Part shown: one piece after another, positions 7,701 through 57,982 of the stretch
Layout of the letters: every line of letters begins with the position of its first letter
Position numbering within the stretch: the stretch's first letter is position 1
From: Cantharellus purpuraceus
Lineage: Eukaryota > Basidiomycota > Agaricomycetes > Cantharellales > Hydnaceae
Assembly: GCA_025174535.1 (NCBI GenBank)
Contig: JALBUN010000004.1
Coordinates: 868,001 to 932,000 of the forward strand
Length of the DNA: 64,000 nucleotides
Direction of reading: 5' to 3'
Position numbers and translations under genes: made by a program
The notes under the pieces: generated by a model
What the model was told of the DNA's origin: nothing
Seen by the model: the letters and a program-made list of their open reading frames with translations, nothing else
Database searches by the model: none

Positions 7701-10700
7701 CCAATTCAACAGGACAAAAGGAACGTTGTAGACTCATGCAAGAGGCTAAGCATGTTGCTGCATTCCTTGGTGGCTCTAAATTATCCAATTGGGCTCCTAA
7801 TTCTCTTCTGAAATTAAAGAGATACATGTCATGTCCAGCTGGATGTGCTTTCTTGGGATCTAATGCCACTACGACTCAAGTATGGCTTAATGAATATGGG
7901 AAAAATCAACAAACCTTAGTTGCAGACTCAGGCTCAGACATTACACTCATATCCCAGAATGCATTATCTGCTATGACAAATCCTCCTAAAGTCAAGATGG
8001 GTCATAAGGTCAACCTTATACAGGTTACGGGCACATCTAAAATCTCAGGCTTTGTCACTCTGCCCATAATCTTTATATGGATTCTGGCCCTGTCCAGATT
8101 GAAGTTGAAGCCTATGTAGTTAAAGGAATGACTATGCCAGTTATCCTGGGAAATGACTTTGCAGATCAATATTCAATCTCTATCGTGAGAGAAAGTAAAG
8201 AAAACTACCTTTCATTTGGAACATCAGGACATCAGACCAAAATCCAAAATTCAGTGGGAACCTCCTTACAAGATAAGAATGGGCATTCATTCAAAATTAG
8301 GACATTGCCTGATCTCCCTTCTCTCCTTGTGAAGTTCAAGGCTCACAGACGTCTTAAGAAAGCAAGGAAACAAACTAGAGCATGGATAGCAGATTCAAGT
8401 GTGTGTGCTCTAGAAACTGTTACAATTCCATCTGAAAGTGCTGCTATAGTGCCAGTAGCTGTTTACTTCCCTGGAAATTCCAATGAAGTTTACATAGAAA
8501 AAGTCTGACACTCCAATAAAGGTGTAGAAGATTTTTATGGAATTCCAGATGCAGTTATTACATGTCAACAACCCCAGTTATATGTGAATAACTTTTCAAA
8601 GAGCCCTGTTACAATTCATCAAGGGCAGCTACTTGGACATGCTAGAAACCCTAACTCATGGTTAGACAGGCCTTCCAAATTGAATTCAGATCAGTTGACT
8701 CTACTTAATCAGCATTCAAACCTGATCAAAGCAGTAGCTCAACAGATTTCTGAGACTAAACCTGGATTCTCTCCAGAGGCAGGCAGTCTCTCAGAAGATA
8801 GTTCAATAGAAGGCGGGCCTAAAACACAAGAACTTCCTGCGGAAGACATATCCAAGTCTAGACTTCTGCAAGAAGTTGACTTTGCACCTGACCTTAGTCC
8901 AACACAGCTTCTTGCCTTGCAGAACATAGTCAAAAAGCATCATACTGCGTTTGGCTTAGATGGAAGGTTAGAAAATTATGATGCAAAGGTGGAAATACAA
9001 TTACGACCAGAAGCCAAGGAAGTTTCTCTTCCTCCATACAATGCCTCACCTGCAAAACAGGGAGTCGTTGACAAGCAGATGGATGTGTGGCTTGAATTGG
9101 AAGTCATTGAACCATCCAAAAGCCCATGGGGATTTCCCGTGCTTATTGTCTATAGAAATGGCAAGGCTTGGATGTGCATTGACTATAGGAAACTCAATGA
9201 GAGAGCAGTACCAGATGAGTTTCCCTTACCAAGGCAGGATGCCATCCTACAAGCCCTTACAGGATCACAATGGTTGACCACATTAGATGCCCTAGCAGGT
9301 TTTACCCAGCTAAGCATGGCAGATGATGCCAAGGAAAAAACTGCATTCAGAACACAGAGGACTTTACCAATTCAGGCGTATGCCCTTTGGTTACAGAAAT
9401 GGTCCAAGTGTATTCCAACATGTAATGCAAAATGTTCTTGCTCCTTTCCTTTGGATTTTTGCACTAGTATACATTGACGATATCGTAATCTACTCCAAAA
9501 CATTCCAGGACCATCTATCACATTTGGACCAGGTGTTCGGAGTGATTGCTAAGTCAGGCCTCACCCAAATGTCACCTAGCATTTCAATCTCTAATGCTAT
9601 TAGGACAGAAGGTTTCATGGTTAGGACTTTCCACTCACAAAGAAAAGGTGGATGCTATACTAGAACTTGCAGAACCAAGAAACCTGCATGAATTGCAAGT
9701 TTTCCTTGGAATGCTAGTATACTTCTCTGCTTATATCCCATTTTATGCATGGCTCATAGCACCTCTATTTGAGTTACTCAAAAAGGAAGCTCATTGGGAA
9801 TGGATGGAAACTCAACAAGTGTTATGACTATATTCATTAACGCCCAGATCCCCGTCCGATCCACTCAGATCCCCACACATATGAAATCTATACTCCATTT
9901 GGAAACCGCTACGTCTCCATTTACCTGTCCGATTGTCACCGCCGATTCCGCCCATCCGCCTCCGGTTCCGATTGATGCATCAGCATCACCATAGGAACCT
10001 GGACATCCGTCCCCGTCGGACTCGGACATACTCATGTAAGGCCGTCGGCCTCGGAGACCCATCACTGGAGTAATTATTATTAGATTTCAAATATGTATTT
10101 AAGTTGCCCGACTGGGGACTTCATTCCCCAGTTCGAATATCGAATCACGCCTAGCTCCTACGTCCAATCCTAACTCTCTAAGTCGTACTCCGTCTCCGAA
10201 ATCTCGGACACCGGTATTAGTGAGGGCGCAGCACATAAGCTGAAGCCAAGTCTGTTCCGACCCCCACGATGTACTCCAACTCCAACCCAACCTCCGATCC
10301 AAACTCCGACCCCCAATCGGACCAAGTGCGTAACAACAAGAGGCATTCCAGCTAGCTAAGCAAGCCTTAGTGAGTTCACCAGTCAGGGCTCATGCAATTC
10401 CTGGACTAGGCTACAGAGTATATTCAGATGCATGTGATGTCAGAATCGCTGCCATCTTACAACAAGTTCAACCAATTAAAATTTGTGATCTGAAAGGAAC
10501 TAAGGCCTATTACAAGTTGCAGGCGGATTACAAGGCAAAGCAACCAGTCCCACAACTTGTCATTCCTATTTCTAAAAATGAAGAACCCTTCATCAATAAA
10601 GAATGGGATCAAGAATTTGAGGAAACAGTTGTTCATGTGGAATGAGTAATAGCCTACTGGTCAAGAACCTTGAAACCAGCAGAAAAGAATTACTCTCCTA

Positions 10701-12724
10701 CTGAAAGAGAGGCCTTAGCTTTATGTGACGGATTAGTCAAGTTCCAACCTTATATTGAAGGAGAAAAGATTACTGCGGTTACCGACCATGCAGCACTAGT
10801 CTAGAGCAGAACATTTCAGAATGTCAACAGAAGATTGCTCACATGGGGAACTGTATTTGCTGCCTATCCAGATCTTCAGATTGTACATCATGTGGGAAGA
10901 GTCCATTCAAATGTGGATCCTATTTCCAGATTGAGAAGGAATATCCCTTTCCAAACCAGACCTGTTACGGATGAATCTGCACATACAGTTCTTACTATGG
11001 AACAAGACTCCCTCACAGATCTATACATGGAGATTGCACCTGACTTTGAAGCAAGAGTTCTCCTTACTGTGGCAGCATTTGAGGAAGAAAACTCCAAGAT
11101 ATTGCCATCCACATTTCAAACGGAAATTTCTCATCAGTTGGATGCAGCCATCAAAAAAGGATTTACCACCAACTATCAAACAGCTTGTTCATATCATCTT
11201 CAGGTTGCATTAGCTCCAGAAGAGATTGAAAAATTCATGAACAGATATGACTCGGATCCATACTTCCAGAGGATCAGGAAGGAAATTCATGAAGAAACCA
11301 ATTGGAGCACATCAAGCCAGCCACTATTCTCAGAAGATGATAATGGTCTTCTCTTTTTTGAAGACTGGAATGGTAATCTCAGGCTATGCATACCAAAAAA
11401 TCAACAGGTTCAAATCATGAGTGAAATGCATGATAAATTGACTGAAGCTGCTCACACAGGTTACCACAAGACCTACAATCAGATTGCAAGCATCTACTAC
11501 TGGCCTTGGATGAGCAGACATGTCAAACAATTTGCCACTAGCTGCGACATCTGTCAGAAAGCAAAACCGAGACGACATGCTCCTGTAGGACTGTTACAAC
11601 CCTTGCCCATTCCAGAAAGACCATTTGAGGTCATATCTATGGATTTCATCCCAGAACTCCCCATCAGTCAAGGCTATGACAATATTCTCGTAGTAGTGGA
11701 TAAACTCACCAAGTATGCTATATTCATCCCTACAACAAGTACTGTCAATGAGGAACAGACTGCGTAATTATTTTTCACACATGTAGCAACTACATTTGGA
11801 TTGCCTCGTCAAATCAGTACAGATCGAGACTCCAAATGGACTGGATCATTCTGGAAGGTCCTTTGTGATAAATTTGAAATGAGACAAGCTCTTACTATGG
11901 CCCATCACCCTCAAGCAGATGGCCAGACAGAAGTAATGAATCAAACTTTAGAAACAGGTCTTAGAACTTATGTCAATCCGGCATTAGATAACTGGGCTAG
12001 TATTCTAAAGGAGTTTGCACTATCCTACAATACAAATCCGCATTCTGCAACAGGATTCTCTCTGGCCTTTTTACTGTACGGATTCCAGCCAAGAACTAGC
12101 GCTGATTTGTTCCACCAAGGAATTGATCTGGTTCTGAGACCAGAGCACAGTGATCAGGGCCTAGGTGACACAGGAACCAAAATATTAGAAAGCGACAAGG
12201 CCAAGGATTTTTTAGAAGGCTTTGAGACTTACCAGTCCCAAGCGAGAGAGGCCCTACAGTTCTCTCAAGTGGTGCAGAAGAAGAACTATAATCGGAACCG
12301 GTTAGTACAAGAGTTTGAAGAAGGAGACCAAGTGGTAATAAATCCACACACCTTAGAATTGCTCAAGAATTGACACGGTCTTGGATGGAAGCTTCAAATG
12401 AGGTATGACAGCCCATTTGAAATCCTAGAAAAGCTTGGCCCGCTCACATACTGATTGAGAATGCCAGCCTCATACGGGCTGCACCCAGTGCTAAACATAG
12501 CACATTTAGAATCCTACCAAAAGTCCCCTGCTTTGTTCGGTGACTGGCCACAAAAGCATTTGGATCGCACAGACTTCACAGAGGAACCAGAATATGAAGT
12601 AGAAGCAATCATCAAGTTGCACTGGAGACCCGCAAGAAATGGGAGATGTACCGAAGAGCTCCTTACAAAATTCACGGGCTATGGACCACAGTTCAATGAA
12701 TGGTTGACGTGGAGGCAATTGTGA
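7625..12724 (+). pseudogene. Element 1 pol: protease, RT, RNase H, integrase, chromodomain
   Basis: This is a Ty3/gypsy polyprotein broken by frameshifts and stops. In order: an aspartic protease with VADSGSDITLIS (about 7918) and PVILGNDFADQ (about 8140); reverse transcriptase with CIDYRKLNERAVPDEFPLPR (about 9175) and the catalytic YIDD (9470-9481, in LVYIDDIVIYSK); a tether region to about 9827; RNase H resuming after an inserted LTR (YSDACD near 10418, TEREALAL near 10705); integrase with an HHCC zinc finger (CDICQKAK, about 11543), a DDE core (MDFIPELP, STDRDSKW) and NQTLE; and a C-terminal chromo-like domain (about 12590-12720), marking it as a chromovirus-type element. Stops at 10643, 10801, 11765, 12371 and 12451 and several frame changes make it dead. 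LTR D1 interrupts it at 9820-10335. Confidence 0.9.
9820..10335 (+). repeat. Solo LTR D1 inside pol, TSD ACAAG
   Basis: 516 bp, TGTTATGAC...GTGCGTAACA, flanked by the 5-bp duplication ACAAG (9815-9819 and 10336-10340). It splits the RT/RNase H region of element 1; removing it and one duplication rejoins the reading frame region. It contains a TATTTAAG box and is one of the least CpG-decayed D copies here. Confidence 0.92.
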
Positions 12725-12988
12725 AACACCCCTGAGATCGTTTGGACTTGGGATGAGAAACAAGGGTGCCAGCGGGACTTTCAAAGGTTGTAGATGTTAA
12801 GCGAAGCCTCTAGAATGAAGAACATACTAGGATGTATCAGTATCAGCAGGAATAACCTCTAGAAAAACCATAAAAAAGTGAAAAAGATAGCTAGAGGCCT
12901 AGCATCCCAAAAAACAGTGAAAATCACAAAATCAATCACTCACTACTCATTTCTCCACCTCTCCACTTGAAATTTCACTCACATCCTC

Positions 12989-14064
12989 ATGGCCCTATTC
13001 CCTCCTATTATTGCCAACAATTACCAGGTTGCACGCATCGGCAAAAAAATCAAGCAGTCGACGGTGACGGTGCTGGAGTTCGAATTCCAGTACAGCAACA
13101 ACTTTGAATATTATAAGCCCTGCTTTCAAGACTGGAATCACACATATATATTTGGAAAGGAACTTGCCTCTCTCCATCCAGAACTTGCAGCTGGCATTTG
13201 GGAGATGGTGCGCATGAAGTGCAGATATATTCTTGTGGCCACATCTGGCTGGAAGGGTGATGCGGAAGATCACATACTGCCATTAGACATTAAGGAGGCT
13301 CATTTTCAAAAAATAGATATGATACGACCACCCTTCCCTCCTGAGGATTACCTTGCTTACAACTTTCTAAAGATCCCTGGAGATAAAAAGGAGATGGAGG
13401 GCTGGATTGAGAGTTGGCAGCAAACCGGCCACCAGCTCAGCGCCTGGATCGCTAAAGCCAAAAACAATTGTATTATCTATGGAGATACAACATGGAAGTG
13501 GCCTTTGGACCCAAGGGAACATGCCTACAACCCCGTCCGTGAAAACAAATGCATATACAGAGACCTTGAGGACAAACACTCGCTTATAGATGCATGCAGA
13601 GAGTTCTACAATGGGGATCTCAAAGAGGACTCATGTATGCATGCTATAACCATTAGTCCTGATAGTTCTAACATAAAACTGCCAGTGGAGACCCCAGCTT
13701 ATGCTCTAGGAGCCAGAGTTGAGTGCAGAACAAAAGGAGGATCCATGACCACTCCCCAGTTGATTCCACTAGGGATGGCATGGCCTCCAGCAAGGCTAGT
13801 CGTAGCCTCACTTATCCTGAACCTTATGATGTCGAAAAGCCACAAAACACACAAGTTATCAAGTGGCAACCCTCCATTGCTCAGCTGCTGCAAGAGTAGA
13901 TCAAGAATGGATTTCCCTTCTTCATTCCACCTTCTAAGGTACACTACAACTCTCCAGAAAGTTCCCCCTGCGACGCTAGCACCAAAAGGCCCAAGCAGGC
14001 CATAACTCCCAGCTCTTCCACTGCTTCTACCAAGATTTATGAGGAGGAGAACATGTACTTCTGA
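12989..14064 (+). pseudogene. Accessory sense ORF between integrase and 3' LTR, unknown function
   Basis: An open frame from the ATG at 12989 (MALFPPIIANN...) runs about 250 codons before a frame change near 13740-13780. The second frame continues to a TGA at 14062-14064 with one internal TAG at about 13898. I do not recognise the protein. It is rich in Trp and aromatic residues, has no signal peptide or membrane segment, and its last 60 residues are Ser/Thr/Pro rich. It sits after the chromodomain and directly before the polypurine tract, so it is part of the element. An envelope gene would normally show a signal peptide and transmembrane helix, and neither is seen. Confidence 0.6.
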
Positions 14065-19370: not shown

Positions 19371-19640
19371 TGTAAGTACCCAAGGTTTTTACTTACTATA
19401 GTATATAGCTAGATAGTTATAATTAATGTATGCAGCATTCCATTAAGGAATGCTGTCTTCTTGATAGATATATGCACCCATAGGGTGCATATGTATAGTT
19501 ATTATGTAAGCCAGTGGACCCAAGTACATGTGTGGGTCCATATATAGAACTTAGTAACTACCACACTGTACAGCACATCGCCCAACCAATACACTTGGTT
19601 GAGTTCTGTGCAACAGTGTGAACTAAGACACCCATTAACA
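19371..19640 (+). repeat. LTR family E, copy E1 (truncated)
   Basis: Begins TGTAAGTACC and matches the reversed copies at 23098-23338 and 25480-25974 and the direct copy at 51399. It stops at CCCATTAACA, where D-type antisense-gene sequence begins, so the rest was lost in a rearrangement. Confidence 0.75.
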
Positions 19641-19974
19641 TCTGGAGACATATAAAAGGAGGGGCATGTTGAGGTCTTATTCTCTTGCAAACATGAGCAT
19701 GGTCAAGCTTGAGCAGTTGCTTCTGGCCTGATGGAAAGAAGAGGAGGAATGGAAATGGAAGGAGAAGGAGCAGGAGCAGAAATAGAAGGAGCAGGAGCAG
19801 GAGCAGAGATGGAAGGAGGAGTAGGAGGAGCAGAGATGTAAGGAGAAGGCAGAGGCAGAATGGAAGTGGGAGAGAAGGCAGAGGCAGAGTGGAAATGGGA
19901 AGAGGAGGTGAAGGTGGTATCAGTTCACTTATGGAATAAATCCTATATCTGGTGAGGGTGAGCAAAGAGTGCAC
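19641..19974 (+). pseudogene. Copy 3 of the D-type coiled-coil gene, 5' part only
   Basis: The leader has the same TATAAAAGGAGG box (about 19650) as the copies at 53559 and near 57890. The frame begins at ATG 19693 (MSMVKLEQLLLA), meets the same TGA as the other copies, and continues as a short EEEEWKWKEKEQEQ array with further stops. No zinc cluster is left. It lies directly behind truncated LTR E1. Confidence 0.65.
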
Positions 19975-20639
19975 TGTTGAGATGATTGATTGTGCTCTGT
20001 GACTGGAGGATGATGGGTGGATGTGAATTGGAAGTATGTGTTGTTCCAGCTGCTGGACATCTAGCTGCCGGACTTCTGGGGAGAAAGGAGAGGAGAGAGG
20101 GATTAGAGGGGACAGGGGAGGAACAGGAGCATATAGGAGGCTCAGGAGGTTTGGAGGGGTGAAGGGGGTAAAGGAGGATGGTTACAGGAATGGAATAGGG
20201 AACAGGAGAAGCCCCTGTGAGTTCTAGAACTTCCTGGACATTATTTCACTTTTATTTTCATCATTTCATCATCATGGACACTTCCCCTCATTATCATCTC
20301 ATCATCCATCCCATCATTGACTCAGGACATTCACGAATGACTTCATTCATTCATAGGACTTAGTATCATATATAAATCACGTCTGTAATGCACTTGAAAA
20401 GAGAGAGTAATTATCTCTCACATATTCTGTCTGTGTCTGAATCTATTCGTATCTGGAATATCTCCAGAACGAACGCATATTTCTATTAGCTTTTGCATAT
20501 TCTATTAGAATATTGCATATCCCACTAGAATCTTGAATTATGAAGCCATACAATCACTGGCTACATTTTTATTAAGCATTTACTTCAAATCGAATCACCT
20601 ACTCCTGCTACCTGCTGAATTAGCTTGTATCTTGGTGTA
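19975..20639. other. LTR-like fragment (G1) and purine-rich spacer
   Basis: Bases 20060-20220 are G/A-rich without a supportable frame. Bases 20340-20640 look like part of an LTR: a TATATAAATC box near 20369, then a stretch (GAATATTGCATAT...GAAGCCATAC) that recurs at 27608-27780. Confidence 0.45.
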
Positions 20640-27924: not shown

Positions 27925-27982
27925 TAAGTGACCCTTGAACTGGAAAATCAACAGTTACTGAGATATAGAGGATGACACTGTA
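27925..27982 (-). repeat. LTR A5, left fragment
   Basis: Reversed LTR-A sequence (CCTTGAACTGG...GATGACACTGTA) that resumes at 36690. The TA at 27981-27982 is the Tc1 target. Confidence 0.85.
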
Positions 27983-28194
27983 CAGTGACTCAAAAAACTG
28001 TTTCAATGTTTGCTTGTTTTGACTTTACAGTGCCATAACCTAACAAATAAATTTGTTAAAATATCCAAAGTATTACTGTATATAGTAATTCATCTTATCT
28101 TCAAGACATTTGTTGAATCATGTTGATTGGGTGTGATCTGATAGAGATATGGAAACATTAATCTGGTCATATCATTGAAACAGTTTTTTGGCCA
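27983..28194 (+). repeat. Tc1 left terminal inverted repeat
   Basis: 212 bp starting CAGTGACTCAAAAAACTG, matching the reverse complement of 36478-36689 with roughly a dozen differences. Its inner end carries an inverted copy of the outer motif (CATTGAAACAGTTTTTTGG). Confidence 0.92.
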
Positions 28195-28211
28195 ACAGAT
28201 TATAGATACTA

Positions 28212-29195
28212 TTAGTACTTTGTATGGCCTCCTTTGGCTTCTATTACAGCAGAAATTCTTCTAGGCATATTCTCAATTAGTCCTTGACACACCTCTACCC
28301 CTATTTTTCCCCATTCCTCTTGTACTCTCTCCCAAGTTCCAAAATTCCCTGAGGGGGTGTCTCATACTCTGCTAGCCTTCTCTTCAGGTGATTTCACAGG
28401 TGTTCAATGGGGTTAAGGTCTGGTGATTGTGCAGGCCATGGGAGGACTTGGAAACCATGGTCTTTGAACCAGTCTTGAGCCTTTTTACAGGTGTGTTTTG
28501 GATCATTGTCCTGTTGAAAGATGGTACTACATGGAGTCTTGCCATAATATGAAAGGCTGCTTTGGAGTTCATCCTCCAGAATCTTGATGTAAAGGTCTCC
28601 ATCCATCCTCCCATCTATCTTGCATGCATCCCAACTCCCTTCCACAGCATACAGCCCCATATCATCAAGGATTCTCCTCCAAACTTCAGGGTTCCCTCCA
28701 CTAATTGGTCACTCAATTCCTCTCCTGCATTTTTCCACACCCATTTCTTGCCATCTGACCCCAAGCAATTAATTTTGGTCTCATCTGACTAAACAACCTT
28801 CTTCTGGTCCTCCAAAGTCCAGTGCTGGTGACTTATGGCAAAGTCTAGTCTTGGCCTTTTCTTTTTCACCACAGCCTTCATTTCAACTCTCTTCAAGCCA
28901 TTCCTCATTGCTTGTGTTGAGAGAGGTTGGTTGATGACATCCTGAAATGCTTTAGTGACCTGGACAGCATTTTCAGCTCTGTCAGAGCCAATAAGACAAA
29001 GAGCATGGCAAATATTAGTATCTGAAAGTTTGTTTGGATGACCACCAGGAGACTTTGGAAGGTGGGATGAGTGTTTAGAGCATAGTCTGGAGATAGTAGC
29101 ATTGGATACACCAGTCTGGGATGAGATTTGATAGCTTGAGATGCCTGAATCAAGGAGGGAAAGGATATGAGTCTGTAGAGAGACAGAGGCTTCAT
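28212..29195 (-). pseudogene. Tc1-like transposase (inactive)
   Basis: This is a cut-and-paste DDE transposase that integrates at TA. On the minus strand: a helix-turn-helix N-terminus (ILSLLDSGISSYQISSQTGV, about 29160-29100) and a GGHPNKLS linker; then the catalytic motifs SDETK (first Asp, about 28785), DNDPKHT (second Asp, about 28505) and PQSP-type SPDLNPIEHL (third acidic residue, Glu); ending with IEAKGGHTKY and TAA at 28212-28214. Damage: TAG in place of Trp just before SDETK, TGA in place of Trp right after NPIEHL, and frame changes near 28655, near 28330 and close to the start. All three catalytic acids are still encoded. Confidence 0.88.
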
Positions 29196-29333
29196 GATGA
29201 TGTAGAGTAGATCAACAAGTTGTTATGGTCTATTTGTTCAAGAATCATGTGACATAAAGGAATCATTATATGCCAAATATGTCACAACAGGTACTGTCTG
29301 GAGGTTCACAAAAGCAGATTTTCAGTCACAGAT

Positions 29334-29943
29334 TGTTACATCCTGTAACACTGAGTTCCAATCTCTGGATTCCATCTCCACCTCCGTCAACTCCACCTCC
29401 GTCAACTCCACCTCCGTCAACTCCACCTCCATCAACTCCGGACCCTGCCATTGTTCTCCTCATTAGTAGTCTTCTTCTTATGGGTTACAACAACTGTTAT
29501 ACTTTCTAATTGTTTAGTATTAGTTCAGACATGAGTCTGAACTCTGAACTCCTTTCCATGTTGTATTCCATATTAGTCTTATTGTCTTATCGCTTTTAGT
29601 TTTACCATTCAATTCTCTACATACTTATATGGGCTACTTCTTGTATGTTACAGTAGTTCGTATATCGACTAAGATTCCCCATCAGCTTCTTGGTTACTAG
29701 CTTCTTGACAAGTCGAACTCTGGATCTTTGATCCAACTCTGTACTCCAAACTCTGAAATATTGGACCGACAATTTTGAGGGGGCACAACACATAAGTTGA
29801 AGCCAAGTCCACTCGATCTGACTCAATAGTTATTTGTCCCCATCTGTCTCCGGTTGAGCTGGAACAGTAAAATCCCCTCCCCTTCCTCACTAGTATCTGA
29901 ACACCAGCTACTCCTTTAAACTCCGAGTTTTCAGCACTTAACA
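29334..29943 (+). repeat. Element C 5' LTR (610 bp)
   Basis: TGTTACATCCTG...CACTTAACA. It contains an imperfect 15-bp tandem repeat (CCACCTCCGTCAACT) at about 29378-29440, two units longer than in the 3' LTR. Confidence 0.95.
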
Positions 29944-29973
29944 GTATATACGAACCAATACCCTCAAATCGTC

Positions 29974-31108
29974 ATGCCACCCCGAAGCACCCAGACCTCC
30001 ATCTGAGCGGGAGTACCACCTGCTACCATTGAGGAAGTCCCTGGAGAAGCACCATCATCCAACCAGGAGCTCAAGGCTAACCTCCAGGAAGGCACTCCCC
30101 CAGCCAATCCATCATCCATCCCAATCCCTAACCTTGCAGAAGCCCTCAGTATGTTGGCTAACTCCATATCATCTCCGAAGAAGTCTTCTGCTCGGACCAA
30201 GGTCCGAGAACCAGATACCTTCGACGGATCTGATTCCCACAAACTCCAGCCTTTCTTCACACAATGTACCCTCAATTTCCGTGACTGTCCTGATGCATTC
30301 TCCGATGATAGTGCTAAAGTTACTTATGCTCTATCCTATTTGAAGGGAACTGCACTTGACTGGTTCGAACCCACCCTAACCTCCAATTCCGAAGCCTCTT
30401 GGCTAGACGACTACTCCGAGTTCGTGTCCGAGTTGAAAACCAACTTCGGACCTCATGACCCAGAGGCTGAAGCCGAGGCCAAACTCAAGAATCTCCGAAT
30501 GCATGATAACCAGAGGATCACTAAGTATCTAGTTGATTTCAATCGACTAGCTGCTCGTGTCCAATGGAAACGCTGCACTCCGACGCCAGTTATACAATGG
30601 TCTCCCATCCTGGATTAAGGACGAGGTCGCCAGAGTAGGCAAACCCGTCACCCTAGCCGAACTCCGGACTCTAGCACAGTCCATCGATGCTCGGTACTGG
30701 GAACGACGCTCCGAGGTAGCTCGTGAGACCGCCTCAGGCAAGAACCAGGACAAGTCCAACGACAAGGGCAAGTCCACCTCATCCTCTAACACCCAGGGCA
30801 GCGACAACAAGAAGCAGCCCAACTCTGGTAAATCCGGAAACCCCAGATCCACCCCCACAGCCTCTACCTCTGGAACTCCAAAGCAGATCCCCAACCTCTC
30901 TACCAAGCTTGGTAAAGACAGTAAACTTACTCTACAGGAACGACAATGTCGTATAGAGCAGAATCTCTGCCTCTTCTGTGGACGAATAGGTCACATTGCC
31001 AAGGATTGTCCGAAGACCACCTCTGCAGCCATGAAAGCCCATGCTGCCTCGACAGACAACAAGTCCAACAAGAGCTCTGAAGCCAAGGCTACGGAGCCAA
31101 AAAAATAA
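29974..31108 (+). pseudogene. Element C gag
   Basis: Starts at ATG 29974 (MPPRSTQTSI) and hits TGA at 30004 where Arg fits. The capsid region contains TFDGSDSHKLQPFF and SYLKGTALDWFEPTL (about 30210-30370). A one-base frame change near 30565 leads into LYNGLPSWIKDEV and the zinc knuckle CLFCGRIGHIAKDC (30969-31010). It ends at TAA after a Lys-rich tail, 31106-31108. Confidence 0.88.
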
Positions 31109-31129
31109 TAAGCAACCCTCTGACTCCAG

Positions 31130-34100
31130 CACCGAACAAGGGTTGCATTGAACTCATCGGTGTTTTCACAGAGCTACATCTCAACGCATCCGCTCTTTCT
31201 GATCCTAACTCCTTGACACTCCGACTTACCTCCAATCTCATTCCCTTAACTCTGATCCCAACCTTAGTGGACTCCTGTTCCACTCACTGTTTCCTCGACA
31301 CTTTGTTTGTCTCCGGACATCATCTCCGGTCTAAAGACATCACTCCGATTCCGTTATGGCTTTTCGACGGATCCTCTAACTCTGTTATCAATTCCACAAT
31401 CGAATTGCCACTCCGTTTTCCTATGGGAGAAACCCACTCCGTTACTTTCTATGTAACTCCGTTGGATGTTAGTTGCTTGGCAGTTCTGGGACACAACTGG
31501 CTCACCCGCTACAATCCGTTGATTGACTGGGTATTGGGCAGTATCTCGTTCCGAACTCTGATAGAGACTAAATCCTTGGCGCCACCCGAGTCGGTAGCAT
31601 TAGCTCCACTCAACTCCATAACTCCGTCTCTGCCTGTTGCTCCAAAAATAGCTTTCATCAACGCGGCAGCCTTCACCTGTGACTCTTTCCAAGCCGACAC
31701 GCAAACATTCAAGTTGTTCATCTCCTCAACAGTTCCAAAGAACTCCGAGGACCCTCTGGTTGACATGAAAAACGTTCCAACCGAATATCACAAATTCACG
31801 GACATCTTTAGCAAAACCTGTGCTGACACACTACCTGCTCACAAGCCGTACGATTTGAAGATTGAAATGGAAGATGGAACATCTCCTTTCAGTCCGATCT
31901 ACTCCTTGTCCCAGAGAGAACTCCAGGCTCTTCAAGAATTCATCAATGAGCACCTATCTTATGGTTTCATCCGGCCGACCCGATCTCCGGGCGGTGCTCC
32001 AGTCCTTTTCATTCAGAAAAAAGACGGATCCCTCCGACTTTGCGTTGATTTCAGGGGTCTCAATAAAATCACCAAAAAAGACCATTATCCACTTCCTCGC
32101 ATCTCCGATTTGCTCAACAGTCCTCAAAAGGCTTGATTCTTCACCAAAATCGATCTCCGGCATGCTTACCACCTTGTCCAGATTCATGAAGGTGACGAAT
32201 GGAAGACCACATTTCACACTCGGTACGGCTCGTTCAAGTGGTGCATTATGCCCTTTGGACTTACCAACACTCCGGCAGCATTCCAGCGTCTTATGAACAA
32301 CATCTTCTCCAACCTCCTGGATATATGCGTCCTCGTGTACTTGGACGATATCCTGATATACTCCAACAACTCTGATGAACACAGCAACCATGTCCGTGAA
32401 GTCCTTCTCCGACTCCGGAAGCACAAGCTGTATGCTCGAGCTGACAAATGTTCTTTCCACAAGAGCACGGTTGAGTGCCTCGGATATATATTGTCTCCAA
32501 ACGGACTTACTATGGACTCCAGCAAAGTCCAGGTAATACAGGATTGGCCAGAACCTCGCAAAGTCAAGGATGTGCAATCCTTCTTAGGATTTGCCAATTT
32601 CTATAGGTGTTTCATATTCAATTACTCCGATCTCACAGTTCCACTGACTTGTTTAACTCGTAAAGGAACTCCATGGGAGTTCTCAGACTCCTGTTGGACA
32701 TCCTTTGAAACGTTAAAGAGAGCTTTCATCACAGCTCCAGTCTTATCCCAATGGAACCCTGGATCCCCGATCATTGTAGAAACCGACGCCTCCGACTATG
32801 CACTAGCAGCCATCCTATCAACTGTCTCTCCAACAGATAATGAGGTCCACCCAATAGCTTTCCACTCCTGGACTTTCACTCCAGCGGAACTCAACTACGA
32901 TGTCCATGATAAAGAACTACTCGCAATCTTTGAAGCTTTCAAGTCCTGGTGACATTACCTCGAAGGATCCCCAACTCCGGTTGATGTCATCACAGACCAC
33001 AAGAACCTCGAATACTTTTCAACTACCAAACTCCTTACACGGTGGCAAGCCTGCTGGTCCAAATTCCTGTCCCAGTTCAATCTGGTAATCTGATTCTGTC
33101 CTGGCAAACTCGGTACAAAACCAGACTCGTTAACTAGATGATGGGACATCTATCCTAAAGAGGGAGAAATAATTATGCAGCAGTAAATCCGCATAATTTT
33201 AGGCCTGTGTTCACTAATGAACAGTTAACGGCATCCCTCCAAGCTATGACGTTCTACTCCCCAGTCCTCCGAGCAGCCATCACTATGGATGTTGACACAC
33301 TCCACTCCGATATCCAATCCGATCATCTCAATAAACCGACCAATCGCTGGTCCATTGACTCAGAAGGCTTACTCCGTCTAGACAACCGCATCTACGTTCC
33401 TGATGTGAACAATCTCTGACTCTGTGTACTCCAGAATAAACATGACCATCTGATCTCCAGTCATTTTGGACAAAACCGAACTATAGACCTAATCAGGTGA
33501 GACTACATCTGGCCTGAACTATGTGGTTCCGTTAAGTCCTACATCAAATCATGTACCACTTGTATGCACTCAAAGTCACAGAGACATTGTCCTTATGGAC
33601 TACTCAAGCAACTCCCCATTCCAGAGAGGCCGTGGAACTCCATATCCATGGACTTCATCGAGAAGCTTCCAGCTTGCTCTGGTTACGACACCATCCTAGT
33701 TATTGTGGATCGCCTCACCAAGCAGTCCATTTTCATTCCTACAGTCGACACCATCACAGCTCCTATGCTTGCAAAATTATTCGTGCTCCATGTCTTCTCC
33801 AAGCATGGAGTTCCATCACACATTACCTCCGACCGAGGTATGGAGTTCGTGTCCTCTTTCTTCTGAACCCTCGGAAAGGCCTTGGACATTAAACTCCACT
33901 TCACCTCTGGATACCATCCGGAAGCCGATGGACAAACCGAACAAATGAACCAGACTTTGGAACAGTACCTCTGGGTCTATTGCAACTACCAACAGGACAA
34001 CTGGTCCGACTTACTCCCACTCACAGAATTTGCATATAATAATGCTCTGAACGCCACTACTGGCTTATCTCCATTCTTTGCCAACAAGGGTTACCACCCA

Positions 34101-34724
34101 AACATCTCTGTACATCTGGAATGAGACCTCGCTTCTTCAAGAGCTCGAGACTTCACTGTGGATCTCCATGAACTCCACCAGCATCTCCGAAAGACCATCT
34201 CCGATGCCCAACTCTGTTACTCCACCTCCGCTGACCGCCGTCAATCTCCGGCTCCAGACTTCAAGGTTGGAGACAAGGTTTTCATCAAATCTAACAGCAT
34301 ACATACTATGAGACCTTCCAAGAAACTATCGGAGAAATATCTTGGTCCTTTCGAAATCATCGCTCAAGCAGGCTCTAACTCCTTTACCCTCCATCTTCAA
34401 GAAAGCATGCGCTCCATACACCCCGTCTTCCATGTCTCCATGCTCAAACCATCAACTCCAGATCCGTTCTCCGGTCGAGAACCAACTCCAGTTCCTCCTG
34501 TCATCATAGACGGAGAACCAGAGTATGAATTATCAGCGATTCTGGACTCCAAGATCGACAAGAGACGAAAATGTAAACTGCAATACCTTGTCAGGTGGGC
34601 AGGATACAAAGGAACAGACGAAGAAACTTCCTGGCTACCAGCTTTGGAATTAGGACATGTGACAGAGATCATCTCCGATTTCCACACAGCCTATCCTCAT
34701 AAACCTGGTCCCATTTTGCCTTAA
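31130..34724 (+). pseudogene. Element C pol: protease, RT, RNase H, integrase, chromodomain
   Basis: The protease active site reads [11 protein letters not shown] (about 31264), so the usual Asp-Ser-Gly is Asp-Ser-Cys. RT has [20 protein letters not shown] (about 32041-32100), MPFGLTNTPAAFQ and catalytic YLDD (32338-32349). RNase H has ETDASDYALAAIL (about 32780). Integrase has HHCC residues (SCTTCMHSK, about 33550), DDE motifs (MDFIEKLP, TSDRGMEF) and NQTLEQYL. The chromodomain is near 34510-34680 (PEYELSAILDSK...LVRWAGY). TGA stops at 32134, 32950, 33091, 33139, 33417, 33498, 33864 and 34122 all fall where Arg is expected. One frame change lies between 33141 and 33207. The final TAA is at 34722-34724. 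Confidence 0.92.
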
Positions 34725-34782
34725 TTCACTCCATTTTCTCCAAGAAACTCCAATCAATCATTCATCACATTCTCCAAGTACA

Positions 34783-35746
34783 TCAAGACTCCATGATCTC
34801 TGACTCCCCTACATCCAATTGCTCAGAACCCCCATCCACTGTCCCCCCCTTCTCTGAAATCTCCGACTCCAGTCTCTGATCCTCAAGCATCCTGTCAATC
34901 TCCTCCCATGGCCTCCACTCCTCGTCATCCAACCCATTGAAGTTATCCGTGGTATCCCAAGACCTGGAGGAGTTTGAGTCCGTGTCGTATATGGCACCCA
35001 GGAATTCCAGCTTCAACGAGTCCAACTCCCCTTGGAGTGGACCCCATCTCGGTCCGTCATGTAGTGATGGAACATTCCCGCGAGCTCACCCAAATGAGCC
35101 TTGATGCCCTGAAGGGCTGCGATTGTTCCTTCACCATGATCGGACACATTGATCAAACGACGAGCCACCGCGGCCGAGTTGAGGCTGACGTCCTGCATGG
35201 CCTCTACCAATGCTGGCGGTATTGACTCGACCCCAGGACCTGAGGACATGGTCCATGTCCTATGACGTTTGGGAGACGGATCCGCTGCACTTACACCCTC
35301 CTCGCGATCACGTTTGCGTCGCGGAGGAGTGCTGCCTTTCACCTCGCATTTCAGCTGGTTACTCTGGCACGTGAGACAGGAGTGAGATTTTCCAGCCTAA
35401 AAACAAAAAGAGAAAATCAGTATAAAAAAAAAAAAAAATCTGCATTCACTGATCCACTTACCATGGTCCATTCACATACATCCTCGCACTTAATGCACGT
35501 ATCACAGATGAGGTCCAGCTCGGACTCCTCATCGAGGTCTCGGACGACCTCCTTGCCTTTGATGGCTACTTGCGATGCGGCCCTCCTCTTCACGGCCTCC
35601 ACTCTGACTCGTGCGGCCTCAGTGACCCTTGCGCGAGCCGCCTCTTTCTTCTTCTCCTCCTCCACCTTCTTCTCCACGGCATCAGCCTCAGCGATCGACT
35701 GGTCCAATTCGGCGCGTTGTTGGTGAAGTTCCTCAGCGGAAGGCAT
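34783..35746 (-). CDS. Antisense gene in element C: coiled coil plus Zn2Cys6-like cluster
   Basis: It lies between pol and the 3' LTR, on the opposite strand. Exon 1 (ATG 35746 to 35462) starts MPSAEELHQQRAELDQ, has a Lys/Glu/Arg/Ala-rich coiled coil (residues about 5-65), then LICDTCIKCEDVCEW. A GTAAGT donor at 35461 and a TAG acceptor at 35397 bound a T-rich intron. Exon 2 begins AGKSHSCLTCQSNQLKCEVK. Together these give C-x2-C-x6-C, about 13 residues, then C-x2-C-x6-C, the fungal Zn(II)2Cys6 pattern, followed by a basic stretch (PPRRKRDREE) typical beside such clusters. Exon 2 continues through ALVEAMQDVSLNSAAVARRL to a stop after VHSKGSWTR. One base out of frame, an open stretch (ELDSLKLEFLGAIYDTD, to 34783) looks like its true C-terminus. 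Likely role: DNA-binding or regulatory protein of the element (inference). Confidence 0.7.
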
Positions 35747-35871
35747 AGTAGATGGTGGTAAGAGATAAGGAATGAGGTAACACACGTTTTAATAAGGGCC
35801 TCACCTCATGCGCCAATTCAACTGCATATACCTGCAACGTTCCCATGGTACTGACTAAGCTTGTGGGCTCG

Positions 35872-35888
35872 ATCTAGAAGGGAGATAT
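35872..35888 (+). other. Polypurine tract of element C
   Basis: TAGAAGGGAGATAT directly precedes the 3' LTR. The corresponding place next to D7 and D8 has AAATGGAGAGATAC, which supports calling those 3' LTRs. Confidence 0.6.
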
Positions 35889-36468
35889 TGTTACATCCTG
35901 TAACACCGAGTTCTGATCTCTAGATTCCATCTCCACCTCTGTCAACTCCACCTCCGTCAACTCCGGACCCTGCCATTGTTCTCCTCATTAGTAGTCTTCT
36001 TCTTATGGGTTACAACAACTGTTATACTTTCTAATTGTTTAGTATTAGTTCAGACATGAGTCTGAACTCTGAACTCCTTTCCATGTTGTATTCCATATTA
36101 GTCTTATTGTCTTATCACTTTTAGTTTTACCATTCAATTCTCTACATACTTATATGGGCTACTTCTTGTATGTTACAGTAGTTCGTATATCGACTAAGAT
36201 TCCCCATCAGCTTCTTGGTTACTAGCTTCTTGACAAGTCGAACTCTGGATCTTTGATCCAACTCTGTACTCCAAACTCTGAAATATTGGACCGACAATTT
36301 TGAGGGGGCACAACACATAAGTTGAAGCCAAGTCCACTCGATCTGACTCAATAGTTATTTGTCCCCATCTGTCTCCGGTTGAGCTGGAACAGTAAAATCC
36401 CCTCCCCTTCCTCACTAGTATCTGAACACCAGCTACTCCTTTAAACTCCAAGTTTTCAGCACTTAACA
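35889..36468 (+). repeat. Element C 3' LTR (580 bp)
   Basis: Same ends as the 5' LTR, but with two fewer 15-bp units. Mismatches to the 5' LTR are transitions, several at CpG. Confidence 0.95.
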
Positions 36469-36477
36469 CAGATCAGC

Positions 36478-36689
36478 TGGCCAAAAAACTGTTTCAATGA
36501 TATGACCAGATTAATGTTTCCATATCTCTATCAGATCACACCCAATCAACATGATTCAACAAATGTCTTGAATATAAGATGCATTAATATACACAGTAAT
36601 ATTTTGGATATTTTACCAAATTTATTTGTTGAGTTATGGCACTGTAAAGTCAAAACAAGCAAACATTGAAATGGTTTTTTGAGTCACTG
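36478..36689 (-). repeat. Tc1 right terminal inverted repeat
   Basis: Reverse complement of 27983-28194, ending GAGTCACTG next to the TA duplication. Confidence 0.92.
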
Positions 36690-37364
36690 TATGTCACTCT
36701 AGTCACACTGGTGTGCAGAAGATGGGGTAGAATTGGTTGAATTGGTTGCTATTTCAGAGGCAAAATAGCCTCCTTATATATTGTATCTACAGGGGCTGAA
36801 TAATGCTTCTGGAATCTTCTATCTAATAATAGAGGGAAACTACTGGAAGGTTATGGAAGGTGGAAGAAAGGGGTAGAGGATTCCAAGCTAATCACCTGCT
36901 CTGATCACTGGACTAGGCACTGATCAGGCAAAAAAGAGGGTATCTGCCCTGTTTTTTGCACTGGTTCACACAGCCATGCATAGCCACATCTTAGATGGTA
37001 ATCTCCATAGAAAATGGTGTTCTGAGAGGCTGTGGTTATCAAGTTACAGAATATTTATTGATCAGAGACATCTAAGCTTGAATTTGGGCCAAATATGCCT
37101 GGTTCTGAGGCAGATTGCTGACTGTGCAAAGGTTTGTAGGTGTCAGTGGGTCCACAGCTGTAGCACAGCAGAATCAGCACATTCTGGGCAAAGTTCTGCA
37201 TGGAAAATCCCCCGAGAAAATAGGGAAAAATATAGAATATTTGAATAAGTCCACTCCAGGTAAAGGCATTGTGTATATGCTCACATTTAGAAATGGAAAA
37301 GCAAAATAAAGCACATTGGTGCTGCATAAATAGAATTTGATAGGGAAAAGGTGGTTCCCATACA
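36690..37364 (-). repeat. LTR A5, right fragment
   Basis: Continues the LTR A sequence broken by Tc1 and ends GGTTCCCATACA at 37364. More diverged from A1 than A2-A4 are, so it is an older copy. Its right neighbour is K-region sequence. Confidence 0.88.
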
Positions 37365-52942: not shown

Positions 52943-53459
52943 TGTTATGCACTAGGTCCGATTGGGGGTCGGAGGTTGGGTCAGAGTTGGAGCGGGAATC
53001 GGGGTGTGTCGTGGGGGTCAGAACGGACTTGGCTTCAGCTTATGTGCTGCGCCCTCACTAATACTGGTGTCTGAGATTTCAGAGACAGAGTACAACTTAG
53101 AGAGTTAGGATCGGACTTAGGAACTAGGCGTGATTTGATATTCAAACTGGGGAATGAAGTCCCCAGTTGGGCAACTTAAATACATATTTGAAATCTAATA
53201 ATAATTACTCCGGTGATGGGTCTCCGAGGCCGACGGCCTTACATGAATATGTCCGAGTCCAACAGGGATGGATGTCTGGGTTCCTATGGGGATGCTGATG
53301 CATCAATCAGAACTGGAGATGGATGGGCAAGATTTGGCAGTGACAATCAGACAGATAAATGGAGACATGATGGTTTCCAAATGGAGTATAGATTTCATAT
53401 GCACGGGGATCTGAGTGGATCAGATGGGGATCTGGGCATTAATGAATATAGTCATAACA
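52943..53459 (-). repeat. LTR D7, 3' LTR of a minus-strand D element
   Basis: 517 bp, reversed D. There is no matching duplication at its two ends. On its right is the element's interior: PPT-like GTATCTCTCC (reverse of GGAGAGATAC), then the antisense gene. Confidence 0.85.
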
Positions 53460-53539: not shown

Positions 53540-55275
53540 CTATACTGGGGGTCTGGAGACATATAAAAGGAGGGCATGATTGAGGCCTTATCCTCAACAA
53601 TGTCAAACCCTTTGGCAAACATGAGTGTGGCTGAGCTTGAGCAGTTTCTCATGGCTTGACGGAAGGAAGAAGAAGAGGAGTGGAGATGGAAGGAGGAGGA
53701 GGAGGCAGAATGGAGACGGAAGGAGGAGGAGGAGGCAGAATGGAGACAGAAGGAGGAGGAGGAGGAGGCAGAATGGAGACGGAAGGAGGAGGAGGAGGCA
53801 GAATGGAGATGGAAGGAGGAGGAGGAGGCAGAATGGAGATGGAAGGAGGAGGAGGAGGCAGAATGGAGATGGAAGGAGGAGGAGGAGGCAGAATGGAGAT
53901 GGAAGGAGGAGGAGGAGGCAGAATGGAGATGGAAGGAGGAGGAGGCAGAACGGAGACGGAAGGAGGAGGAGGAGGCAGAATGGAGATGGAAGGAGGAGGA
54001 GGAGGCAGAATGGAGATGGAAGGAGGAGGAGGCAGAACGGAGACGGAAGGAGGGGGAGGAGGCAGAACGGAGATGGAAGGAGGGGGAGGAGGCAGAACGG
54101 AGACGGAAGGAGGGGGAGGAGACAGAACGGAGACAGAAGGAGGAGGAGGAGGCAGAACAGAGATGGAAGGAGGAGGCTGAGGCGGAACACAGACGGAAGG
54201 AAGAGGAGGAGGTGGAGTGGAGATGGAAGGAGGAGGTGGTGGAACAGAGACAGAAGGAGGAGGAGGCAGAATGGAGATGGAAGGAGGAAGAAGCGAAGGC
54301 TGAGTGAGCACACAGGGTCAAGGAGCTTGCAGCCACAATGGAGGCTGTGAAGCTGAAGGAAGTGGAAGAGCAGGCACACAAGCTAGAAGCCGCCATGGAG
54401 GTAGAGGAGGAGGTGACCAGGGCAGGGGCAACTAGTTACCCAGGGAGTCCAAGTGTGCCAATATGGGTGGGAATCCCTGAGGTCACCATTGTCTCGATTA
54501 CATGGACAGAGTTGACCTGTCTGACAACTGTCCCTCCAGTAGGCTCACCATTGCATCTGCAGCCATGGCTGTTATTTGCAGTGGGTGCGGCTGAAGAAGA
54601 TGATGCAGTGGAGACAGAGAGGGCAGAAGTGGAGGCAGATCCTGATGCCAACATGGAGCTCAATGCAAATGCAGAGCCTGAGGTGGGTGTGGATGTCAGG
54701 ATGGATATGGAGCTGGATCCGACCTTGAATTGCTACAAGGAGATGGCTTGGGTAGCCGCAGTTGAAGCTCACAACAGGGCGGAGCTATATGCTGCTACCA
54801 CCAAGAAAAACCTTGAGGTCACAGTCTTTTCATTGAAGGCGCACCTGAGTGCTGATACAGAGAAGTGGGAGGCAGATCGGAGGGTCATATGGTGCAAGGC
54901 GGAGAGTCGCGTATTGGTGACTTGTAAGAAGGAGCTGCATGTTGCTAGGTCAGTGATCCAGCTTCGCAAGTGCAAGATGGAGAAGGCGGCAGTGGAACAG
55001 CAGGACAAGGAGGAGGAGAGAGAGCACTTGGAGGCCACATCGAGAAGGAGTGGACCACCCAAGGCTCTGGCTCTGATGGAGCCATTCAGCAGGCCTGGCG
55101 TAATTTGCAACTTGTGTCATGATGTGGGTGTGGAGTGTGTATGGCCCACTGGTCCAACTTGCTGCCTTCGGTCCTGCAATCATTGTTGGGGTTGGAAAGG
55201 AGGGTGTAGGATCAATGGAAAGTTCAATCCCTGAAGTCAGAGTGTCAAGCCCCAACTAGTGGTACAAGGAGGTGT
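53540..55275 (+). pseudogene. D-type antisense gene copy 1: Glu-rich repeats, coiled coil, Zn2Cys6-like cluster
   Basis: TATAAAAGGAGG at about 53562 precedes ATG 53600 (MSNPLANMSVAELEQFLMA). The same frame holds to 55234 with two TGA stops (53657 and about 54306). It encodes: an array of roughly 20 units of the type EEEEAEWRxK (53660-54300); a coiled coil (KLKEVEEQAHKLEAAMEVEE, about 54350-54415); an acidic middle (GAAEEDDAVETERAEVEAD); a Lys/Glu-rich helix (about 54960-55050); and CNLCHDVGVECVW then CNHCWGWKGGC, again C-x2-C-x6-C twice. A TGA at 55233 and LTR A4 at 55276 end it. The layout parallels the antisense gene of element C. Adjoins 3' LTR D7. Confidence 0.75.
53684..54300 (+). repeat. 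Tandem repeat, ~30-bp units (GGAGGAGGAGGAGGCAGAAT...)
   Basis: About 20 units of 27, 30 or 33 bp, all multiples of three, varying at the ATGGAGAYGGAAG positions. It yields long spurious frames on both strands (Pro/Ser-rich on the minus strand); only the Glu-rich frame is continuous with conserved flanks. Confidence 0.9.
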
Positions 55276-56704: not shown

Positions 56705-57854
56705 GACAGTGTGGAATGGTTCCATTAGAGCCAGAGCCTTGGGTGGTCTGCTCCTTTTTGACATGGCCTCCAAGTTTTCCCTCTCCTCCTCCTTGTCCTA
56801 CTGCTCCACTGCAGCCTTCTCCATCTCACACTTATGAAGCTTGATTGCTGACCTAGCAACATGCAACTCCTTTTTATGAATTGCTAGTAGGCAATCCTCC
56901 ACCTTACACCATATGATCCTCCAACCTGCCTCCCACTTCTCTGTATCAGTGCTTGGGTATGCCTTCAATGAGAAGACTGCAACCTTGAGATTTTTCTTGG
57001 TAGTAGCAGCATATAGCTCCATCCATTTGCAAGCTTCAACCACACCCCAAGCCATCTCCTCATAATGATTATTTGAGGTTGGGTCAGGCCCTGTATCTGT
57101 TCTGACATCCAAACCCACCTTGGGCTCCACATTCACATCAAGCTCCATGTCTGCATCAGGATCTGCCTCTACTTCTGCCTTCTCCACCTCCACTGCATCA
57201 TCTTCTTCAGCTGCACCTGCTGCAAACAACAGCCATGGTCGCCAGCACACCGGCAAGTCTACCAGTGGGGCAGGTGTTGGACAGATCAACTCCATCCGTG
57301 TAACTGAGATAATGGCAACCTTGGGAGTCTGCACCCGTACTGGCATGCTTGGACTCCCCAGTTGACTAGTTGCCCCACCCTGGTCACCTCCTCCTCTACT
57401 TCCATGGTGGCCTCTAACTCATGCACCTGTTCCTCCACTTCCTTCAGCCTCATGGCCTCCATTGTGGCCACAAGTTCCTTGACCTTGCACACTCGCTCTA
57501 CTTTTGCCTCTTCCTCCCTCTGCCTCCGCTCTGCTTCCTTCTCCTCCTTCTATCTCTCCTCCTCCTCCTCCTCCTCCTCCTCCTCCTTCTGTCTCTGTTC
57601 CATCACCTCCTCCTCCTTCTGCCTCCATTCTGCCTCCTCCTCCTCCTTCTGTCTCCATTCCACCACCTCCTCCTCCTTCCATTTCTGTTCCACCACCTCC
57701 TCCTCCTTCTGTTTCCATTCCACCACCTCCTCCTCCTTCTGTTTCCATTCCACCACCTCCTCCTCCTTCCGTTTCCATTCCTCTTCCTCTTCCTTCCATC
57801 AGGCCAGGAGCAACTGCTCAAGCTCAGCCACATATTTGCAAAAGGATTCAACAT
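56705..57854 (-). pseudogene. D-type antisense gene copy 2 (truncated, reversed)
   Basis: From ATG 57854 on the minus strand (MLNPFANM). It shows a 4-bp deletion near the start, the shared TGA, a shorter EEEE-V-EWK array (about 57800-57500), the middle region with GAAEEDDAVEVEKAEVEADP (about 57215-57160) and AATTKKNLKVAVFSLKA (about 57005-56960). LTR A4 cuts it right after ALALMEPF, so the zinc cluster is missing. Upstream (57855-57982) it has the same leader as copy 1, ending at LTR D8. Confidence 0.75.
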
Positions 57855-57982
57855 CATTGAGGATAAGACCTCAACATGCCCCTCCTTTTATATGCCTCCA
57901 GACCCCAGTATAGCTCCGACTGCACCCAACCATCTCACCTATTCAATCCATGGACATGGGCTCAGCCTTAATGGAGAGATAC

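Follow-up and report, generated by a model that had tools for sequence, protein, structure and literature searches.

Two related families of chromodomain Ty3/gypsy elements in the genome of Cantharellus purpuraceus carry a gene on the strand opposite to pol, between pol and the 3' LTR. Selection on its reading frame is of about the same strength as on pol, and on the part that encodes a cysteine-rich region it is stronger than on reverse transcriptase. With about 71 places in family C and 132 scored places in family D, all in one 40-Mb genome, the coding question is decidable from sequence alone, and the gene is almost certainly a genuine element gene kept by selection in both families. As to what it does, the explanation that we favour, if only slightly, is that of a selected element gene whose protein regulates the element's own transcription; that the product is a nuclear regulator of the element is a step to which we would give even chances.

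Element C and its antisense gene

The window, a stretch of 64,000 nucleotides, corresponds to positions 868001-932000 of contig C4 in a genome of 40.15 Mb and 50 contigs. Element C (29334-36468; Table 1) is a Ty3/gypsy chromovirus, with reverse transcriptase, RNase H, integrase and a chromodomain lying between LTRs and bounded by a 5-bp target duplication, CAGAT. Its LTRs are 99.1% identical over 541 aligned bases, the 5' LTR being some 30 nt longer because of extra length in a short tandem repeat. Near the LTR start, at 29350-29440, lies a CTCCACCTCCGTCAA-like tandem repeat whose number is unequal between the two LTRs. The gag of this copy is frame-broken and its pol carries several frame breaks. 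Both LTR ends were found at five of the seven C loci looked at (the window copy, L013, L017, L020 and L023), and all five have 5-bp target duplications (CAGAT, ATGTC, AGTAG, GTGAT and CTCTG) and hold at least part of the antisense gene inside; a complete LTR pair was not found at L014 or L016, the two loci with an open C gene. The C LTR opens (window 35889-35905) with a perfect 7-3-7 palindrome, TGTTACA-TCC-TGTAACA, a candidate binding site, and these 17 bases (TGTTACATCCTGTAACA) are exact in 35 of the 45 C copies with a recognised start of the LTR after the polypurine tract (PPT).

Other repeats surround the element. A Tc1/mariner-like DDE_3 transposase fragment (28394-28660, minus strand) lies just to its left, and an inverted repeat pair belonging to another repeat family (27981-28200 and 36472-36691; 95% over 220 nt) flanks it. 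A more distant gypsy-like element at 8977-14005, with reverse transcriptase and an integrase with H2C2, contains a D LTR. No antisense cysteine gene occurs among the listed ORFs of at least 60 aa there, and a sense-strand ORF of 338 aa (12989-14005) without a Pfam match follows its pol end.

Table 1. Coordinates of the two elements' features and of the antisense genes within the window.
Feature	Position	Strand	Description
Third D remnant, leader and N-terminal part only	19641-19974	.	75-81% DNA identity to D copies
Target site duplication CAGAT, left copy	29329-29333	.	Sequence at LTR end
5' LTR, element C	29334-29943	+	TGTTAC...TTAACA; LTR comparison
gag region, element C	30151-31108	+	Retrotrans_gag in 30151-30618; CCHC knuckle farther on, by inspection
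pol region, element C	31213-34724	+	RT, RNase H, integrase, SH3_Tf2-1, chromodomain at about 34530-34685
Acidic C-terminal part, C antisense gene	35025-34783	-	Other frame in window copy (frameshift); one frame in L014 and L016
Exon 2, C antisense gene, as open in window copy	35396-35013	-	Second Cys triad, basic stretch, middle part, stop
Intron, C antisense gene	35461-35397	-	GTAAGT, branch TACTGAT, TTTAG; 65 nt
Exon 1, C antisense gene	35746-35462	-	ATG 35746, K/E/R-rich stretch, first Cys triad, C-x-W
TATA-like box TATTAAAA	35787-35794	-	41-48 nt upstream of C antisense ATG
Polypurine tract GAAGGGAGATAT	35877-35888	+	Adjoins 3' LTR of element C
3' LTR, element C	35889-36468	+	TGTTAC...TTAACA; opens with the palindrome
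Target site duplication CAGAT, right copy	36469-36473	.	Sequence at LTR end
D-family LTR (3' LTR of D remnant)	52967-53459	-	About 140 nt upstream of D antisense ATG; limits from BLAST
TATA box TATAAAAG, D antisense gene	53562-53569	+	Leader sequence
D antisense gene remnant	53600-55235	+	ATG 53600, early in-frame TGA, E/R-rich repeats, open 54338-55234
D six-cysteine domain	55106-55207	+	C-x2-C-x6-C-x12-C-x2-C-x6-C; C-x-W after first triad
Second D antisense gene remnant, decayed	56714-57857	-	Sequence match to D

The first-pass annotation had proposed an intron-containing antisense gene between the pol and 3' LTR of this element, with C-x2-C-x6-C occurring twice. The gene is present as proposed, its region ending 58 nt beyond the pol stop on the minus strand, and once spliced it has the spacing C-x2-C-x6-C-x10-C-x2-C-x6-C. 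Its proposed extent to 34783 takes in the acidic C-terminal part, which is in one frame with the rest in L014 and L016 but not in the window copy, where a frameshift near 35013-35025 makes exon 2 stop at 35013. These two loci, with products of 304 aa (L014) and 297 aa (L016), are the only ones among 51 fetched C copies that, spliced at their own sites, read open from the ATG to the end of exon 2; the other 49 are not open throughout. The protein comprises a K/E/R-rich N-terminus, the six-cysteine domain (C-x2-C-x6-C-x-W ... C-x2-C-x6-C), a basic stretch, a middle part and an acidic tail, the last 80 residues of L016 including 27 acidic and 4 basic ones.

A protein search of the genome with the C gene gave 165 matches, and those listed were grouped by hand into about 71 places, a few of which look like assembly duplicates. 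The 51 that we fetched were all picked by their match to the antisense gene, so that its presence in them is in itself no evidence. Donor, branch site and acceptor are all kept in 43 of the 51, with a branch site of TACTGAT in 41 and TAGTGAT in 2 and an intron of 49-73 nt whose inner sequence is variable; the full set was missed in eight under the rule used, mostly through deletion, and in L056 the signals are visible by eye, having been missed by the rule. Such retention suggests that the antisense strand is read and spliced as a coding mRNA. Packaged retrotransposon RNA is the sense strand, and since that RNA does not show these splice sites, the intron can outlast retrotransposition.

Among the 43 C copies that keep all three splice signals, the six cysteines are retained in 42, 41, 42, 40, 40 and 37, respectively, and 42 also retain the tryptophan. 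Of the 51 copies, 45 have a recognisable PPT like GAAGGGAGATAC that leads into the LTR start a short way upstream of the antisense ATG, and six have none. In 38 of these 45, the edge of the PPT falls 134-138 nt away from the start of the gene. The TATA-like box reported in the leader next to the LTR recurs as well: of the 43 C leaders with a recognised ATG, 36 have an exact TTATTAAA no more than 75 nt upstream of it. Deletions across the cysteine region or the intron were seen in L013, L015 and L023. L013 and L023, with deletions in the cysteine region, nevertheless each have an LTR pair and a target duplication, so that copies of this kind may have been able to spread, perhaps with the aid of others.

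The gene in family D and its place beside pol

Element D is also a Ty3/gypsy chromovirus, with a chromodomain pol end convergent with the antisense gene and an LTR upstream of the gene. The 132 scored copies are the best of 862 candidates obtained with the D protein query, and 94 of them have no stop within the match, a hand count that is biased towards open copies by this choice of the best-scoring. At L062 the gene is open, encodes 542 aa and has no intron; the protein runs from E/R/K-rich repeats through a second charged region and the six-cysteine domain, at about residues 355-388, to an acidic tail. The D gene had been thought to end at the double C-x2-C-x6-C, which is where the window copy stops, but the open L062 frame runs about 147 aa on into the acidic tail. 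The N-terminal E/R/K-rich repeat, visible at 53659-54280 of the window and in D loci, has a short unit whose number varies between copies. Two further D genes had been suspected in the window; one is a decayed D gene (56714-57857), and the other amounts to a leader and N-terminal part, all 12 D loci matching some part of 19500-20100 with a best match of 81% over 169 bases.

The leader and its surroundings resemble those of family C. About 40 nt upstream of the ATG, TATAAAAGG (six loci) or ATAAAAGG (three) was found in 9 of the 12 D loci examined for a leader, in line with the TATA-like box claimed for both families. Among the 11 loci with an ATG found (12 were looked at), nine have the D PPT/LTR junction motif at 144-146 nt upstream of it, and an opposite-strand pol end with chromodomain sequence lies beyond the gene in four of six loci examined (L061, L062, L064 and L065), being absent from L060, the window remnant, and not clearly seen in L063. 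One locus, L068, was dropped from the D profiles and codon counts as the same as L067.

To place the gene relative to pol across the genome, we used 215 pol-end places from two pol queries, only the best of about 1000 candidates being scored and D-like places overlapping between the queries being dropped by hand. A pol end lies less than 2 kb downstream on the opposite strand at 26 C and 52 D places, with other arrangements at 1 C and 3 D places; the gene is thus convergent with pol in 78 of the 82 neighbouring pairs found, and the remaining copies of the 132 D and 71 C have no pol end among the matches listed. The gene-to-pol distance is 594-642 or 738-769 nt in 51 of the 52 D cases, two groups that reflect the different end points of the two pol queries; among the 26 C cases, 19 have a distance of 295-353 nt. 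The same place and orientation in D as in C, claimed from the window remnants, is borne out by the junction motif and the pol ends. The antisense gene has the layout of an aORF-3R, an ORF between pol and the 3' LTR on the opposite strand, and shows the protein-level conservation across copies that characterises this class.

We also looked for relatives beyond this genome. In a database of 5.8 billion proteins, the spliced window C protein had none at E 0.001 among 2147 candidates and the open D protein none at E 0.01 among the best 7988 candidates, negatives that carry less weight because the search was word-based and subject to length limits and because contigs are short. With the window element's pol end, 856 relatives came up in that database, which shows that related gypsy elements are present in it. 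None was confirmed in IMG/VR with the D protein or the pol-end alignment, or among GTDB contigs with the pol-end alignment.

Codon constraint in the antisense frame

To measure constraint, we left out CpG-context transitions and compared nonsynonymous with synonymous differences against a neutral expectation of 3.52, which gives an omega-like ratio. The gene frame gave 0.260 in family C (1184 pairs, which share ancestry, so that their number is no sample size) and 0.291 in family D (55 pairs of 11 copies), and four other frames gave 1.26-1.76. The mirror frame, in which third positions coincide, gave 0.416 in C and 0.37 in D, with 23 stops per 1000 codons against 8.6 in the gene frame of C. 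Of the six frames, only the predicted one and its mirror show codon constraint. In 20 long C loci the antisense gene gave 0.212 (151 pairs), and the pol controls gave 0.271 for reverse transcriptase and RNase H (13 copies, 29 pairs) and 0.132 for the integrase end with the chromodomain (16 copies, 70 pairs). Divided by part (51 copies, pairs 5-60% apart), the C gene gave 0.232 for the coil, 0.089 for the cysteine region, 0.282 for the middle and 0.391 for the acidic tail.

Two further comparisons were made. Among disjoint nearest pairs, 19 of 23 lie below 1 and 4 do not. A one-ratio maximum-likelihood codon model of 43 of the 51 C copies, those with less than 75% of codons being left out, gave an omega of 0.519, a value that takes in dead terminal branches and CpG changes (lnL -17016.6, kappa 7.3), against a best lnL of -17152.0 over seven grid points (kappa 1-8) with omega fixed at 1. 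The first-pass annotation had proposed an element gene kept in two gypsy families and had named two outcomes that would speak for a captured fragment, a lack of codon-level constraint and homologues found only as ordinary host genes. Neither occurred: the gene is repeated with the element, convergent with pol and under purifying selection, and its copies sit beside PPT, LTR and pol end.

That the gene is a fragment captured from the host, carried as a passenger without function for the element, might be suggested by the absence of homologues outside this genome in the collections searched and by the 49 of 51 C copies that are not open. Purifying selection in two families and the fixed place and orientation beside PPT, LTR and pol end argue the other way, and this reading, rejected on codon constraint in the predicted frame, is extremely improbable.

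The antisense RNA might instead itself be functional, pairing with the sense RNA and silencing the element, a role that could coexist with one for the protein. The convergent layout and the conserved TATA-like leader would yield antisense RNA in any case, and such roles are discussed for plant elements and retroviruses in the accessible parts of two sources (PMC7264820, PMC10186651). An RNA-only role predicts neither codon constraint in one frame, with its peak at the cysteines, nor the keeping of splice sites. Since both are seen, a protein product is far likelier, and we rejected an RNA-only function on these grounds; a functional antisense RNA has at best a slim chance.

Transitions in CpG context dominate the differences between close C copies, making up 2326 of 2713 in pairs less than 10% apart, and suggest cytosine methylation of family C. 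Heavy decay of this type marks C copies L009-L059, in which many of the premature stops are TGA. With these transitions left out, the omega-like ratio is 0.84 in pairs less than 10% apart, as expected for dead copies, and 0.24-0.28 in more distant pairs. Such methylation would fit a protein that acts on the host rather than on the element, for example as an anti-silencing factor against cytosine methylation or small-RNA silencing of the element. Anti-silencing proteins encoded by transposable elements occur in plants, but the C and D proteins have no Pfam similarity to a known family, and we regard such a role as quite unlikely.

Selection similar to that on pol would also be expected of an accessory factor of integration or nuclear import, whose coil would join the integration complex and, with the integrase chromodomain, aid target choice or nuclear entry. 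The basic stretch after the cysteine domain agrees with this, as does the position of the gene beside a pol end with a chromodomain, seen in 26 copies of C and 52 of D. A promoter of its own on the opposite strand would, however, be odd for a particle or integration protein needed in fixed ratio, and we consider an integration role unlikely.

The six-cysteine domain, a proposed function and known systems

The C and D pol ends are about 55-62% identical and the cysteine domains 20-29%. Comparison of the C and D profiles with hhalign aligns the cysteine domain alone, with the six cysteines and C-x-W in register (E 4.6e-4, probability 33%); the score of 34.8 exceeds the 25.0 of the best among 200 column shuffles and the 14.3 obtained with a reversed profile. 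Outside this domain the two proteins have a common layout and no alignable sequence. They share the six-cysteine domain, although the probability that hhalign assigns to the match is low. The simplest history would start from an ancestral antisense gene whose later divergence outpaced that of pol, with exchange of the gene between the two families as a possible alternative.

Zn2Cys6 proteins have the spacing CX2CX6CX5-12CX2CX6-8C, basic residues between Cys 2 and Cys 3 and a coil after the cluster. The proposal that the antisense genes encode such a cluster holds as far as spacing goes, which fits in both C and D. The likeness to the Gal4-type domain of fungal transcription factors (PF00172) lies in the spacing CX2CX6CXnCX2CX6C and in the presence of a coil and an acidic region in the same protein. 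The proteins here differ from it in their conserved C-x-W after the first triad, in a coil that precedes the cluster and in the lack of a basic patch between Cys 2 and Cys 3, where the residues are mostly I-K-x-D-D-V in C and x-D-x-G-x-E in D, and so largely acidic. One open C and one open D protein had no match to Zn_clus in Pfam-A, and of the 19 places that a genome-wide Zn_clus search gave, none coincides with a listed C or D place (the C domain would be split there by the intron). Plain membership of Zn2Cys6 was rejected on the absent profile match; the domain is Zn2Cys6-like, a possible member of the family at most. A profile search of the PDB with the cysteine-domain alignment gave no match, and a structure prediction for the window D ORF, made from a single sequence without an alignment, had a pLDDT of 36.

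For the regulatory function that we favour, transcription of the antisense mRNA would start from the leader adjoining the 3' LTR. In family C this mRNA would be spliced, and the product would be a nuclear protein with a length of about 300 residues in C or 540 in D. The N-terminal coil may mediate dimerisation; the six-cysteine domain, judging from its spacing and composition, is a putative zinc-binding module that would interact with DNA or with another protein, and the acidic tail might engage transcription or chromatin factors. The likeliest job of such a protein would be to control the element's own transcription through binding to the LTR or the leader, with a layout and role comparable to those of HBZ of HTLV-1.

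Both plants and Botrytis are known to have LTR retrotransposons with antisense accessory genes, whose function the accessible text of PMC7264820 describes as unknown. The plant precedents on which the first-pass annotation drew do exist, as aORF-3R genes of Grande (gene23), RIRE2, Retand (with a TRP28 domain) and PvRetro13 (PMC7264820, PMC11963269, as far as these sources are accessible). The same sources describe Grande gene23 as nuclear and transcribed from its own promoter, and TRP28 as predicted to bind DNA. Their place and orientation are those of the C and D genes; the differences are that they belong to plant elements, Retand being a non-chromovirus, and that their TRP28 and SMC domains have no Pfam match here. 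A fungal case exists as well: in Botrytis cinerea, Boty-like gypsy elements have an antisense gene, brtn, credited to Zhao et al. 2011, Virology 417:248 (PMC7264820, PMC8365987, PMC4227169), and PMC7264820 places it among antisense ORFs between pol and the 3' LTR, in the portions available. Set side by side by description, Boty is likewise a fungal chromodomain gypsy element with an additional antisense gene, differing in its ascomycete host and in that the descriptions available give no six-cysteine domain, intron or selection test. The present gene is thus a variant of a known arrangement; no fungal gypsy element with an antisense cysteine-cluster gene was recognised in the literature covered, in which subscription papers are poorly represented.

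The comparison may extend to retroviruses. HBZ is a nuclear regulator that has a coil, an acidic part and a bZIP domain but no cysteine cluster, and it exists in a spliced form. Like the C and D genes, it is encoded in antisense close to the 3' LTR of its retroelement (PMC10186651, in its accessible parts), a likeness for which we claim no homology. HBZ is driven from the 3' LTR, whereas the TATA-like box of C and D lies outside the LTR, in the leader. On a broader reading, which we hold as doubtful, a fungal chromovirus clade has long encoded its own antisense zinc-cluster regulator as a convergent counterpart of HBZ; the protein would bind the LTR or leader, for example at the LTR-start palindrome TGTTACA-TCC-TGTAACA, and balance expression against silencing, and in its six-cysteine domain there would be a new family of zinc-binding domains that has the spacing of Zn2Cys6. 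If the protein does bind the LTR, these elements would offer a direct model of self-regulation by an LTR element outside the retroviruses.
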